Part shown: positions 35,561 to 48,505 of the stretch, one piece after another
How the letters are laid out: each line of letters begins with the position of its first letter
Position numbering within the stretch: the stretch's first letter is position 1
NCBI GenBank assembly: GCA_020629875.1
Contig: JAHDCL010000006.1
Coordinates: 1-56,808, forward strand
DNA from: Hellea sp.
GTDB lineage: Bacteria; Pseudomonadota; Alphaproteobacteria; Caulobacterales; Maricaulaceae
Length of the DNA: 56,808 nt
Reading direction: 5' to 3'
Translations under genes and position numbers: made by a program
Notes under the pieces: model-generated
What the model was told of the DNA's origin: nothing
Seen by the model: the letters and a program-made list of their open reading frames with translations, nothing else
Databases searched by the model: none

Positions 35561-36523
35561 ATGCCAGATACAACACACCATAAAGTTATTATCATCGGGT
35601 CGGGCCCAGCCGGCTACACCGCGGCCGTTTACGCTGCTCGGGCGATGTTAGAGCCAGCGATTATTGCGGGCCTACAACCGGGTGGTCAGCTGACAATTAC
35701 AACCGAAGTCGAAAACTACCCTGGATTTCCCGAAATCCAGGGTCCTGAATTGATGGAAAAATTCAAAGAGCACGCGTTGAAATTTGGCACGAGTTTCTAC
35801 GAAGATACTATCATCGATGTAGATTTTACCACACGCCCTTTTAAGATGATGGGAGACAGCGGAACGACCTATACATCAGATGCCGTCATCATTGCCACCG
35901 GTGCTCAGGCGAAATGGTTAGGCCTGCCAACTGAAGAAAAGTTCCAAGGATTTGGCGTTTCAGCATGCGCCACGTGCGATGGCTTTTTCTATCGCAATAA
36001 GGAAGTCGTCGTCGTGGGCGGCGGTAACACTGCTGTCGAAGAAGCTCTCTTCCTGACGAATTTCGCCTCACGCGTGACTCTGGTTCATCGCCGCGACAGC
36101 CTGCGTGCTGAAAAGATTTTACAACACCGCCTGCTTAATCATGACAAAGTAGAGGTCCTTTGGGATACAACACTTGAGGAAATTTTGGGCGATGAAAATC
36201 CACTCGGAGTTACGGGCGTTCGATTGAAAAATGTGAAGTCGGGTGAAGTCTTTGACCGTGAAACACATGGTGTTTTCATTGCCATTGGACACAAACCTGC
36301 GACTGAAGTTTTCAAAGGCCACGTCGAAATGAATGAAGGCGGATACATTACTACCGCGCCAGACAGCACCGCGACAAATATCCCGGGCGTGTTTGCCGCG
36401 GGTGACGTTTCTGATGAGACCTATCGTCAAGCTGTTACAGCCGCAGGCCTAGGCTGCATGGGCGCTCTCGAATCTGAGCGTTTCCTGACAGAGCAAGCGG
36501 CTATGGCTGAAGCAGCAGAATAG
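35561..36523 (+). CDS. trxB: Thioredoxin-disulfide reductase
   Basis: [54 protein letters not shown]. Confidence 0.97.
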
Positions 36524-37425
36524 TGGACACACTCGATTGGGATAAGGTCAAAACCTTTCACGCAGCGGCCGAGACAGGTTCTCTCACCGCCGCGGCAGAG
36601 CTTTTGAAAATATCCCAGTCAGCCGTCTCGCGGCAGATTACGGCCCTAGAGGAGAGCCTGGATACTCCCCTCTTTCACAGACATGCTCGGGGCCTGACCC
36701 TTACTGAACAGGGGCGAATTCTCTATAACACCGCACACGAAATGGCGCATAAAGTTGCGCTGGCACAAGCCTCAGTTATAGATAGCCGTAACAAACCTCA
36801 AGGCACCTTAAGGGTCTCTTCTCCAATCTCATTGGGGGCAAATTGGCTAACATCAGTATTACCCGAATTTATTGAGGCTTATCCTGAAATTGACGTGCAG
36901 CTTATCCTCGAAGATGAGGAACACGACCTCTCCGCCTTTGACGTAGACGTAGCGCTTCGCCCATGGCCCTCCACCCAAGGCGACGTCATTGAGCGAAAGC
37001 TAGGGTCAATTTCGCAAAGCCTTTATGCTTCCCATGCGTATCTGGCAAATTACGGCGCCCCAACATCCGCAGAAGATTTAGACAACCATAAGATTATCGC
37101 CTTTGGAGACCTCATCCCGAAACGCCTCCATAGTGCGAATTGGGTTTTAAAGGCCGGCCGAAACGGAACGCCCAGAGAGCCGGTTTTGTGTGTGAATAAC
37201 CTGCATGGTATCATGCGCGCCGCTGAGGCTGGTATTGGGCTCGCCGGCATCCCCGACTATATGACTGCGCTCTCACGAAGGCTTGTTCGCATTTTACCGC
37301 AGGTCAAAGGCGAGTCTTTTGACGTCTTTTTTGTTTACCCGAGCGAGCTTAGAGGGTCGGTTAAAGCGAAGGTTTTCCGTGAATTTTTAATGCGCGTGAC
37401 CAAAAACTGGCAGTCTGAGGACTAA
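36523..37425 (+). CDS. LysR family transcriptional regulator
   Basis: DWDKVKTFHAAAETGSLTAAAELLKISQSAVSRQITALEESL; GTG start overlaps trxB stop by 1 nt. Confidence 0.92.
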   Translation: MDTLDWDKVKTFHAAAETGSLTAAAELLKISQSAVSRQITALEESLDTPLFHRHARGLTLTEQGRILYNTAHEMAHKVALAQASVIDSRNKPQGTLRVSSPISLGANWLTSVLPEFIEAYPEIDVQLILEDEEHDLSAFDVDVALRPWPSTQGDVIERKLGSISQSLYASHAYLANYGAPTSAEDLDNHKIIAFGDLIPKRLHSANWVLKAGRNGTPREPVLCVNNLHGIMRAAEAGIGLAGIPDYMTALSRRLVRILPQVKGESFDVFFVYPSELRGSVKAKVFREFLMRVTKNWQSED

Positions 37426-37530
37426 TTAATCGCTAAAAGGCCTCAAAACCGCCCCAGCTATGCAAAAACGCATAGGTAGTCTGCTGTTCTATCTGTTCTT
37501 ATTTCCCATCAGCTCCCCTATTTAGAGTTC

Positions 37531-37654
37531 ACAAGACAAGCAAGCGTCCTCCCCTTTAGTTTCCTTGTCTTCTTATACCGCGAACAATTCCTCCCCGAAT
37601 GTTCTGCGAAGACTTTAGCCGGGCCCGGATATTCCGAGAGCCCGGCTTTTTTTT
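37531..37654 (+). ncRNA. Candidate CCUCCCC-loop trans-acting sRNA (anti-SD / alpha-r14 / CcsR-like architecture)
   Basis: Hairpin 1 stem AAGACAAG/CTTGTCTT (37533-37540 / 37564-37571) with CCTCCCC in loop (37548-37554); hairpin 2 CGC-GAACA/TGTTC-(T)-GCG (37579-37608) with CCTCCCC loop (37590-37596); terminator 37618-37654. Confidence 0.7.
37618..37654 (+). terminator. Strong intrinsic terminator
   Basis: GCCGGGC ... GCCCGGC with inner CGGA/TCCG, followed by T8. Confidence 0.93.
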
Positions 37655-37700: not shown

Positions 37701-40190
37701 ATGCCTGCGGTGATGTTGGGGAATCCAATGGGAGATAAAATCGGAAGAGCGCTACCAGCTATCGACACAGCTGTCGATACCGGTCTCTATCGTCATAACA
37801 TTGCCCCAGGTCAGGACGGGCTCTTTTTGCGTGCCCTTTGCGATGCCCTAGATGTCGGCGTTAGCATCCTAGACGAAAATTTGGACTATCAGTTCATCAG
37901 CGATGCGGTTTTTCGCGACCTGGGTATGAAGCACGGTGAGCTCTCAATCGGAGACAGCTTAAGCAAATGTCATGAATTGATGATGGCAAAGGGTCTGCTA
38001 ACCCCCGAACTATTGGAACAGAACAAACTATCTGCCGAGGAACAAAGAGCCCATATTGAAAATCATGAGGAAGATCTCCCGACGATTGTCAGGCTAGGCA
38101 ACGGAACAACGCACAAATTCATCCGTAAAACCCTCCCAAATGGGTTCACTGTTTCAATGTCCTACGACATTAGCGAGCTCGTAGAGAAGGACAGAATCTT
38201 AGACGAAGCCTTAGCATTGGGGAATGCAGGATATTGGACCTACGACTTCACAACCAAGGAATATTATCTAAGCCATTCGCTAAGGAATAATTTTTCCAAA
38301 GAAGATCAAGCTAAAATTTCGACGCTAGGTATATTGGCTATCGTTCACAAAGAAGACAGGCATCTTTTCAGGGAGGCCATGAAACGTCTAAGCAAAACAA
38401 ATGATACTTTCGAAGTAACCTGTCGATCAAATACGAAAGACGGAGAAGAGCGCTGGAGCCAAACAACAGGGCAAATCATTCGAGGCCCAAAGGGCAGGCC
38501 ACAACGGTTACGCGCTTTTGTGAAAGACGTAACGCGAGATCGTCACCAAGCTAAGGAATTGGAGCGTGCAAAAGACGAAGCCATCGCCGCCTCCCACGCA
38601 AAATCTGAGTTTTTGGCAAATATGAGTCATGAAATCAGGACACCGATGAATGGTATTCTGGGCATGGCAGAGCTTTTGGCAAATTCCGAAATTAGTGAAC
38701 GGCAACGCGATTTTGTGAACGTCATTAATAGCTCAGCAAGCGCACTTCTGACGATTATCAATGACATTTTAGATTTCTCCAAAATCGAGGCAGACGCCTT
38801 TGAATTGGACCCCATGCCCTTTAATTTGAAGAACTGCATCAATGATGTCTCGTCGATGCTGACCTCTCAGGCTTGTGATAAGGGTCTCGAACTCATCATA
38901 AACTACCCCCCCGAATTTAATACAAACTTCATCGGCGATGAAGGGCGGCTACGTCAGGTCATGACTAATCTTGTTGGAAACGCTATCAAATTTACCGAAG
39001 CAGGACACATCGTCACAAATGTGGAAGTGGGCAGCCCCCGAAATGGGACAGCTTTTGTCACCATCAGTGTTACAGATACCGGCATTGGCATAGAACCCGA
39101 AAAGATAGATCAAGTCTTTAATAAATTCACACAGGCCGACGGCAGCACAACGCGAGTATATGGCGGAACAGGTCTTGGCCTTTCAATTTCAAAAGCCATT
39201 ATTGAGATGATGGATGGGCGCCTCACCGTAAGCTCGGAACTCGGAAAGGGCTCCACCTTTACCGCTCAGATTCCGATGAAGATAGATAACGCCGCGGTTG
39301 AGAGAGTCTTCGACACATCAATCCTTCACGGTAAAGAAGCGCTCATAGTTGATGACATTGCTGTTAACCGACAACTTTTGACTGAACAATTAGCAAATTG
39401 GGGCATTAAATCTGATACCGTCAAAGACGGCATTGAGGCCATTACACAGCTCAAAAACAGCGCAGCTGATGGGCGCTATTATGACCTTATTCTGCTCGAC
39501 TTCCTCATGCCTGGAATGAACGGAAAAGAGTTTGCGACGATTATATCTGAAACAGAGGACCTCGGCTCCCCGCCTATCGTCATGTTGTCATCATGCGATC
39601 AACCCGTTTCAAGCCAGGAACTGAATAAAATCGGCATTCACTCCTATTTAGTGAAGCCCGCCCGGGAGGCTCGGCTCTACGAAGCTTTGGTGAGCACATT
39701 GAGTGCTAAGGAAGATATCTCACCAGCGCCCGAAAAGCAATCATTTGTGCAAAAATCCGCGGTGAGTTCCACCCGAGTAAAAACCGAAATTCTTGTTGCC
39801 GAAGATTTCCCCCTCAACCGCGATGTGGTTAGCCTGATGCTCGCAGACACCGAGTATAAACCCGTCTTCGCGACCAACGGCCTGGAGGCTGTAAAAATCT
39901 ACAAAGAAGCGCCAGACCGCTTCCCAATCATAATTATGGATGTCTCCATGCCTGTCATGGACGGACACGAAGCGACCTCTCTGATACAGCAGTTTGAACG
40001 AGACAATGACATTTCCCAAAAACCTATCATTGCGCTCACCGGACATGCTTTAAAGAATGACCGCGATGAATGCCTAGAAGCCGGAATGTGCGATTATCTG
40101 AGCAAACCCGTTAAGCAGTCCGAACTTTTGGAGAAACTAGAACTTTGGCTTAATGGTTCAAAGTCAGCGAAAGACTGCAGAGCTGGTTAA
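37701..40190 (+). CDS. Hybrid sensor histidine kinase with two receiver domains
   Basis: [42 protein letters not shown]1 LILLDFLMPGMNG, REC2 IIIMDVSMPVMDGHEA. Confidence 0.93.
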   Translation: MPAVMLGNPMGDKIGRALPAIDTAVDTGLYRHNIAPGQDGLFLRALCDALDVGVSILDENLDYQFISDAVFRDLGMKHGELSIGDSLSKCHELMMAKGLLTPELLEQNKLSAEEQRAHIENHEEDLPTIVRLGNGTTHKFIRKTLPNGFTVSMSYDISELVEKDRILDEALALGNAGYWTYDFTTKEYYLSHSLRNNFSKEDQAKISTLGILAIVHKEDRHLFREAMKRLSKTNDTFEVTCRSNTKDGEERWSQTTGQIIRGPKGRPQRLRAFVKDVTRDRHQAKELERAKDEAIAASHAKSEFLANMSHEIRTPMNGILGMAELLANSEISERQRDFVNVINSSASALLTIINDILDFSKIEADAFELDPMPFNLKNCINDVSSMLTSQACDKGLELIINYPPEFNTNFIGDEGRLRQVMTNLVGNAIKFTEAGHIVTNVEVGSPRNGTAFVTISVTDTGIGIEPEKIDQVFNKFTQADGSTTRVYGGTGLGLSISKAIIEMMDGRLTVSSELGKGSTFTAQIPMKIDNAAVERVFDTSILHGKEALIVDDIAVNRQLLTEQLANWGIKSDTVKDGIEAITQLKNSAADGRYYDLILLDFLMPGMNGKEFATIISETEDLGSPPIVMLSSCDQPVSSQELNKIGIHSYLVKPAREARLYEALVSTLSAKEDISPAPEKQSFVQKSAVSSTRVKTEILVAEDFPLNRDVVSLMLADTEYKPVFATNGLEAVKIYKEAPDRFPIIIMDVSMPVMDGHEATSLIQQFERDNDISQKPIIALTGHALKNDRDECLEAGMCDYLSKPVKQSELLEKLELWLNGSKSAKDCRAG

Positions 40191-40654
40191 CTCGCGGTCG
40201 CACGCAGCATCCAAGCCGTCTTCTCATGCAATGTCACACGCGGCGCGACAACATCAGCTGTCGCATCGTCTCCCACCTCTTCAGCCACACGTAGGACTTC
40301 GCGAGCGGTCTTGGCGACCTGCTCATGGCCCTTGGCGAGGTTTTTGACCATGTCTTCCCAAGAAGGCTCTGAGCTTTCTTCCGCGATTGATGAAAGCTTG
40401 GACATCGCCCCGTATGACGCAGGCGCGTAATAGCCCAATGCCCGAATACGTTCGGCCAAATCATCCACCGCGGTCCACATTTCAGTATACTGTTCCATGA
40501 ACTGAATATGCAGCTGCTGGAAATGCGGTCCCTCCACATTCCAATGATAACCATGCGTTTTCAGGTACAGCGTATAAGTGTCCGCCATGAGGCGAGAAAC
40601 AGCCTGTGCGGATTTCTCTCGGTCAGCTTTTTGAATGCCAATATTGATATCCAT
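40187..40654 (-). CDS. dps: Dps family DNA-binding ferritin-like protein
   Basis: LMADTYTLYLKTHGYHWNVEGPHFQQLHIQFMEQYTEMWTAVDDLAERIRALG. Confidence 0.93.
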   Translation of the reverse strand: MDINIGIQKADREKSAQAVSRLMADTYTLYLKTHGYHWNVEGPHFQQLHIQFMEQYTEMWTAVDDLAERIRALGYYAPASYGAMSKLSSIAEESSEPSWEDMVKNLAKGHEQVAKTAREVLRVAEEVGDDATADVVAPRVTLHEKTAWMLRATAS

Positions 40655-47839: not shown

Positions 47840-48205
47840 CTAGCCTTTTTCAGCTAGTCGTTCTGCCAGTCTTTCAATCCGTACGGCAGCGTCCAAAAGA
47901 CTATCCGCAGCCTTTGTTTCCGTTTTCGTCGCTAGCCGCGTAGCCGCTTCTGTTTCTTTTCGCAGCGTACCAATCCGCTTATCAACTTCGTTATCCACGG
48001 ACTTGTTCATTTCTTCGAGTTCGTCGAGCATTGTTATTCCGGCCATGACAAGAAGCCGCAAATCCCCAATTTGGCCAAACTGATTGGCCATATTATTCAC
48101 GCGATCATCGAGCTTCTGCCCAAGGCGCATCAGGCGCTCTTCTTCACCATCATCGCACCCAAGAGCATATTTGCGGCCATTAATATTCAGACTTACCTTT
48201 GCCAT
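47840..48205 (-). CDS. zapA: Cell division protein ZapA
   Basis: MAKVSLNINGRKYALGCDDGEEERLMRLGQKLDDRVNNMANQFGQIGDLRLLVMAGITMLDEL. Confidence 0.92.
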   Translation of the reverse strand: MAKVSLNINGRKYALGCDDGEEERLMRLGQKLDDRVNNMANQFGQIGDLRLLVMAGITMLDELEEMNKSVDNEVDKRIGTLRKETEAATRLATKTETKAADSLLDAAVRIERLAERLAEKG

Positions 48206-48208
48206 AGC

Positions 48209-48505
48209 CTAGCCCTCCCCTAATGCCGTGCGAACTTGACGAATGACACGATCTAGTTCTTGGGTTGTTTCATCGGCTAGAACGGTGAACTCTTTTTCCC
48301 GAGCTGCAAAGTTTTCTTCTTTAGCTTTGCTATCATCGAGTTTGGCTGCGAGCTCCGCGCGGTCCACATTCATCGCTTCAGCTTCCTTGGCTTCTGCCTC
48401 CAAGCGCCCTACTTTATCAAGCAGCGGACTCAGTGACCCCTCCAAAGAGCGCAGGGCTGACTGCAATCTTTCAGCTGCCGTTTTGATGTCAGCGCTGTCA
48501 TTCAT
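48209..48505 (-). CDS. Small coiled-coil protein (DUF4164-like) upstream of zapA
   Basis: Heptad-rich 98-aa ORF directly upstream of zapA, as is common in alphaproteobacteria. Confidence 0.7.
   Translation of the reverse strand: MNDSADIKTAAERLQSALRSLEGSLSPLLDKVGRLEAEAKEAEAMNVDRAELAAKLDDSKAKEENFAAREKEFTVLADETTQELDRVIRQVRTALGEG

Follow-up and report, generated by a model that had tools for sequence, protein, structure and literature searches.

Between a lysR gene and a hybrid sensor-kinase gene on the same strand, the 56,808-nucleotide stretch of Hellea sp. DNA analysed here (the window) carries an intergenic region with the outline of a small RNA gene. The locus raises the question of whether such an RNA is a gene in its own right, which regulator would control it, and how it relates to the known C-rich RNAs of Alphaproteobacteria. 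On the evidence presented below, we consider it likely, with a probability of roughly 0.7, that the region is a stand-alone small RNA gene activated by the LysR protein, whose product depends on Hfq and acts in trans through anti-Shine–Dalgarno (anti-SD) sequences, working like rhizobial AbcR1. The features of the locus, which reads trxB-lysR-[sRNA] followed by the kinase gene, are compiled in Table 1; a ferritin-fold, Dps-like gene (40187-40654, minus strand) lies downstream of the hybrid kinase.

Table 1. Positions of the features at the trxB-lysR-small RNA locus of the window
Feature	Position	Strand	Description
trxB	35561..36523	+	Thioredoxin-disulfide reductase, opens the conserved trxB-lysR pair; TIGR01292, 409.7 bits, above cut-off
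lysR	36523..37425	+	LsrB/VtlR-type LysR regulator with LysR Pfam domains; proposed activator of the RNA
Palindrome TATGC-AAAAAC-GCATA	37459..37474	.	Proposed LysR recognition site; centre about 64 nt 5' of the predicted start
-10 hexamer TATTTA	37519..37524	+	Position and sequence kept across homologues
Small RNA, ~124 nt	37531..37654	+	Predicted from folding z-score of -3.88, covariation and occurrence beside lysR
Hairpin 1	37533..37571	+	Anti-SD loop CGUCCUCCCC
Hairpin 2	37579..37608	+	Anti-SD loop UUCCUCCCCGAA; most conserved element of the RNA
Intrinsic terminator with T8	37617..37654	+	Preceded by AAGACUUU

Fold and conservation of the RNA

The initial annotation of this DNA had described two hairpins with C-rich loops and a terminator ending in T8, and the sequence bears this out. 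In hairpin 1, AAGACAAG (37533-37540) pairs with CTTGTCTT (37564-37571), and CCTCCCC at 37548-37554 lies wholly unpaired in the loop. Hairpin 2 is formed by CGC-GAACA with TGTTC-T-GCG; here the first C of CCTCCCC (37590-37596) closes the loop, leaving CTCCCC unpaired, so that the annotated exposure of the motif in both loops holds for the entire sequence in hairpin 1 and for all but one base in hairpin 2. A GC-rich hairpin (37617-37646) then runs into the eight T residues (37647-37654). Folding of 130 nt starting at position 37531 gave a minimum free energy of -43.3 kcal/mol, and none of 200 dinucleotide shuffles folded as well. CCTCCCC itself occurs four times in the window, compared to about six occurrences expected by chance, and its significance therefore lies in its conservation rather than in its rarity. 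Among homologues, CUCCC is predicted to be open in both loops, with a mean unpaired probability of 0.97 for the 34 motifs of hairpin 1 and of 0.92 for the 49 motifs of hairpin 2; the few values from one mis-cut locus, L116, are to be disregarded. Several genera lack the loop motif of hairpin 1 or carry a shorter form of it.

BLASTN matches to the RNA region came from 18 of 61 relatives, a tally that includes the genome of the window, all belonging to the same family, which named records place around Hellea, Litorimonas, Robiginitomaculum and Algimonas. All 18 show the order trxB, lysR, RNA, and the RNA follows lysR in 50 loci. A covariance model built on hairpin 2 plus the terminator (R1) found matches in 81 of 137 family genomes; for the class outside the family, only two marginal matches were obtained in 385 genomes. 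A LysR protein at least 69% identical to that of the window is encoded in 57 family genomes, and after pairing the two genome lists by hand, 56 of these have a strong R1 match (E below 1e-10), with the remaining one showing a weak match of 20.7 bits at the same place (G074). No R1 match was obtained in six genomes that belong to the same genera but lack this LysR; this carries little weight, as some assemblies are incomplete and lysR and the RNA are adjacent. Some weaker R1 matches in other genera, located away from lysR, may be unrelated. Hairpins with UCUCCUCCCC loops occur at the same place in other genera of the family, several of them matching R1 at 33-46 bits; at L326-L330, from some other genera of the family, it is the terminator-like hairpin whose loop carries CUCCUCCCC.

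Compensatory changes were present when the fold was checked across homologous regions. In an alignment of 51 copies (A5), both sides of a pair had changed in 115 cells, compared to 24 in shuffles and at most 43 when partners were slid; 95.9% of cells were paired versus 78.1% in shuffles, and the covariation score was 0.514 versus 0.170. This alignment was fitted to the structure and hence leans toward pairing, with the slide control remaining far lower. RNAalifold applied to unfitted alignments also recovered hairpin 2, in which both partners had changed in four pairs. Across the 51 sequences, both-side change was seen in four of the seven stem pairs of hairpin 2, and compensatory change in all seven stem pairs counted for the terminator. 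As judged from sequence, the fold, the covariation and the homologues support the proposal of an intergenic riboregulator of about 125 nt that has anti-SD loops and was not previously described in this lineage.

The region could also be merely the terminator or 3' untranslated region of lysR, or the 5' leader of the kinase gene, with no role in trans, given that it lies between the two genes on the same strand and that read-through from lysR is possible. We regard this as improbable, because the RNA has its own conserved -10 element and a phased palindrome (see below), its strong terminator ends before the kinase gene, and the conservation of the loops exceeds what a terminator needs. Moreover, the downstream gene in the 18 homologues is usually a sensor kinase, with an aminotransferase gene in three, and where the kinase is replaced by such a gene on the opposite strand (L005, L007 and L010), the RNA is retained.

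Upstream region and the LysR regulator

The initial annotation had placed a promoter of the type TTCTTA-N17-TATTTA in front of the RNA. Its -10 sequence is backed by conservation, with most homologues carrying CTATATA, CTAAATA or CTATTTA, whereas no conserved TTGACA-type -35 appears across the homologues, and a consensus scan detected no sigma-70 promoter at the RNA. We defined the predicted start as 12 nt past the first base of the -10, which would place the 5' end in the window near 37531. Upstream of the RNA, a TATGC-N6-GCATA-type palindrome was found by a loose pattern in 49 of 50 homologous loci, one or two of these matches being doubtful; in the window it begins 34 nt past the lysR stop codon. 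Measured from the palindrome centre, the predicted start falls 63 or 64 nt downstream in 41 of 47 loci, and 60-66 nt downstream in 46 of them. The arms of the palindrome hardly vary, in contrast to its spacer, and a TG follows at a fixed distance. Owing to these properties and the lack of a clear -35, the region resembles a promoter that depends on an activator and carries a LysR-type site. Genome-wide, the palindrome showed no enrichment over the reversed control and no regulon was seen; the case for a candidate LysR box is thus built on its position and conservation.

The LysR protein of the window shows 45% sequence identity with S. meliloti LsrB, rising to 64% within the first 66 residues, and its best PDB match, at 280 bits, is 9HH1, the structure of A. 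tumefaciens LsrB (PMC11975290). The R. leguminosarum homologue is annotated as VtlR and is likewise encoded after trxB. Considering this identity, LsrB as the top PDB match, the single copy and the adjacent trxB, the protein is probably an ortholog of LsrB/VtlR. S. meliloti LsrB has cysteines C142, C234 and C271, whereas the relatives of the window protein keep the equivalent of the first only, some having C223 in addition; the window protein itself has Val at position 143, a site occupied by a conserved Cys in its relatives and in LsrB, and of these cysteines it has only C223. The redox-sensor cysteines of LsrB were not found in the window LysR, and since they are mostly absent, the signal that it senses may differ from that of LsrB.

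Proposed mechanism and candidate targets

In the mechanism that we propose, the LsrB/VtlR-type product of the upstream gene would bind TATGC-N6-GCATA about 64 nt before the RNA start and activate a promoter that has a good -10 but no clear -35. Transcription would yield an RNA of about 124 nt ending at its own terminator. Together with Hfq, the gene for which is present in the genome, the RNA would display its C-rich sequences in the two hairpin loops, and these would pair with the G-rich Shine–Dalgarno regions of several mRNAs, blocking their translation or hastening their decay.

Potential pairing sites of the form GGGGAGG-N3-12-ATG number 34 in the genome, compared to 6 in the reversed control, with candidates including lptA (11-nt match), a gene for a DctP-type solute-binding protein (9 nt) and zapA. 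The extended dctP and lptA matches are not conserved in relatives, and therefore we claim no target. In the window, a GGGGAGG Shine–Dalgarno sequence before a ZapA-like gene (48203-48220, minus strand) is a candidate pairing site. Alternatively, the RNA could be a sponge or a protein-binding RNA, its loops capturing G-rich RNA or protein instead of the Shine–Dalgarno regions of mRNAs, in line with the lack of conservation of the targets tested and with the Caulobacter ar8 RNAs SisA-D (UUUCCUCCCU), to which the sponge CrfA binds (PMC12559287), indicating that C-rich stretches can have RNA partners. However, mRNA leaders are the pairing partners of the C-rich stretch in AbcR, NfeR1 and SisA (PMC8844928, PMC12559287), and we consider a sponge or protein-binding role unlikely.

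Relation to known RNAs of Alphaproteobacteria

The initial annotation had assigned the RNA to the ar14/NfeR1 or CcsR families, a membership that we reject: an Infernal search of Rfam returned neither at E≤10, using a library confirmed to hold CcsR1 and ar15, with ar14 lacking a positive control. NfeR1 (ar14) and CcsR (RF02791) do resemble the Hellea RNA in having anti-SD motifs in several C-rich hairpin loops, and its -10 context, CCCCTATTTA, resembles an RpoH-type -10 (CCTATAT, PMC8844928), as would suit CcsR, an RNA made under RpoH control from a place downstream of a DUF1127 gene. The motifs and neighbours are different, with two CCUCCCC loops versus three or four CCUCCUCCC (PMC3927594), and with lysR and trxB as the upstream neighbours; the annotation had correctly seen no DUF1127 gene there. 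As membership in either family would also leave the lysR linkage and the palindrome unexplained, we hold it to be very unlikely. The ar8/suhB-mmgR RNAs (RF00519), which include SisA-D of Caulobacter, share CCUCCC and GACUU before a GC-rich terminator, but they contain just one such motif, which is single-stranded (PMC12559287), sisA is found elsewhere, downstream of CCNA_00780, and the model scores 19.9 bits on the window RNA, under its gathering score of 41. GsrN is marked by a sigma-EcfG promoter and by proximity to phyR (PMC5869019), neither of which was seen at the Hellea RNA. Matches to DnaX (reverse strand), betaproteobacterial toxic sRNA, anti-hemB, SorX and RcsR1 were below gathering scores and largely driven by the terminator.

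AbcR is regarded as an RNA of the Rhizobiales. A 2025 study called LsrB unique to the same order (PMC11975290), and in the open-access literature, to which our search was confined, no LsrB- or VtlR-linked small RNA has been reported outside Rhizobiales. At E≤1e-40, a LysR protein of the LsrB/VtlR kind was detected in 185 of 289 genomes of the class. Among 89 loci outside the window's family, trxB was detected in the fetched stretch in 75. An ATGC-N6/7-GCAT palindrome within 160 nt past lysR was found in 35 of the 89, compared to 0.9% of background windows and 0.4 loci expected from shuffles, and all 35 palindromes are followed by CUCCC motifs; some trxB-lysR loci are without palindrome or CUCCC RNA. 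The commonest RNA at the outside trxB-lysR loci, captured by model R3 (sequence ACGUCUCCCAGACGUGAAGCCUCCCUGUU), is like the Hellea RNA in its locus, CUCCC motifs and terminator and, in many cases, the palindrome, but differs in sequence; R3 found no match in the window RNA (8.5 bits, E 3.5).

Two arrangements in the class deserve mention. At L136, L137, L141, L155, L183 and other loci from many families, trxB-lysR is followed by a highly conserved ACGTCTCCCAGACGTGAAGCCTCCCTGTT plus a terminator, an element matching no Rfam family at the cut-off save for one marginal SorX match. At L158, L166 and L167, lysR is followed by a tandem array of two or three CUCCC RNAs, recalling abcR1/abcR2, and some of them have their own ATGC-N7-GCAT palindrome.

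A LysR regulator with a neighbouring CUCCC RNA and a probable operator is seen in free-living marine relatives and in many other alphaproteobacterial families, and a circuit so far described from rhizobia and their relatives alone seems to span much of the class. If so, a circuit known from work on virulence and symbiosis would be a general one, and the RNA to probe, together with its controlling regulator, could be predicted genome by genome. It would also offer a case of an RNA changing its sequence while retaining its control and pairing principle.

The closest comparison is with AbcR (ar15, RF02345). We read the order trxB-lsrB-ATGCGCAAACGGCAT-abcR1-abcR2-arsR directly from the S. meliloti sequence, where both RNAs are called ar15 by Rfam, and also read the order in R. 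leguminosarum; the window RNA and its homologues occupy the corresponding location downstream of trxB-lsrB/vtlR. Upstream of S. meliloti abcR1 there is an ATGC-N7-GCAT palindrome, and its centre lies at about -65 according to the LsrB box that was placed at -61 to -49 in earlier work (PMC8844928). In A. tumefaciens, abcR1 is activated by VtlR (PMC7486931), whereas for S. meliloti 1021 one Northern test saw no effect of LsrB on AbcR (PMC7486931), contrary to PMC8844928. Common to AbcR1/AbcR2 and the Hellea RNA are the trxB-lysR-sRNA order, the length of about 120 nt, the intrinsic terminator, and a two-motif design in which the loop of the first hairpin displays an anti-SD motif and another C-rich motif is present; the LsrB-type palindrome near -65 is shared with AbcR1. 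The Hellea RNA differs in that its box has a spacer of N6 instead of N7, its second anti-SD motif is in a hairpin loop and not between hairpins 1 and 2 as in AbcR (PMC5461406), and it is present in single copy as opposed to the tandem abcR1/abcR2.

With the ar15 model, no match was listed for the window at E≤10, although ar8 and ar15 belong to the same Rfam clan and only the best clan match (suhB) is shown, so that a lower-scoring ar15 match may have been masked; true AbcR/ar15 RNAs score 97-127 bits with the same library. Our own AbcR model (R2, six rhizobial sequences) gave 24 matches over 423 kb, of which 22 are at the RNA locus, with a best score of 31.4 bits in Litorimonas and 12 bits (E 3.3) on the window RNA. 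This signal is locus-specific but weak, and the shared design could explain part of it. The Hellea RNA most likely has the same place and control as AbcR and works like it, while on present evidence it is no member of ar15 by sequence. We give even odds to the further possibility that it is a true, sequence-diverged ortholog of AbcR, in which case the LsrB/VtlR-type LysR and the adjacent anti-SD RNA would form an ancient module of Alphaproteobacteria, where the RNA sequence has turned over (AbcR, R3 type, Hellea type) and the gene order, the operator and the C-rich motifs have been kept.
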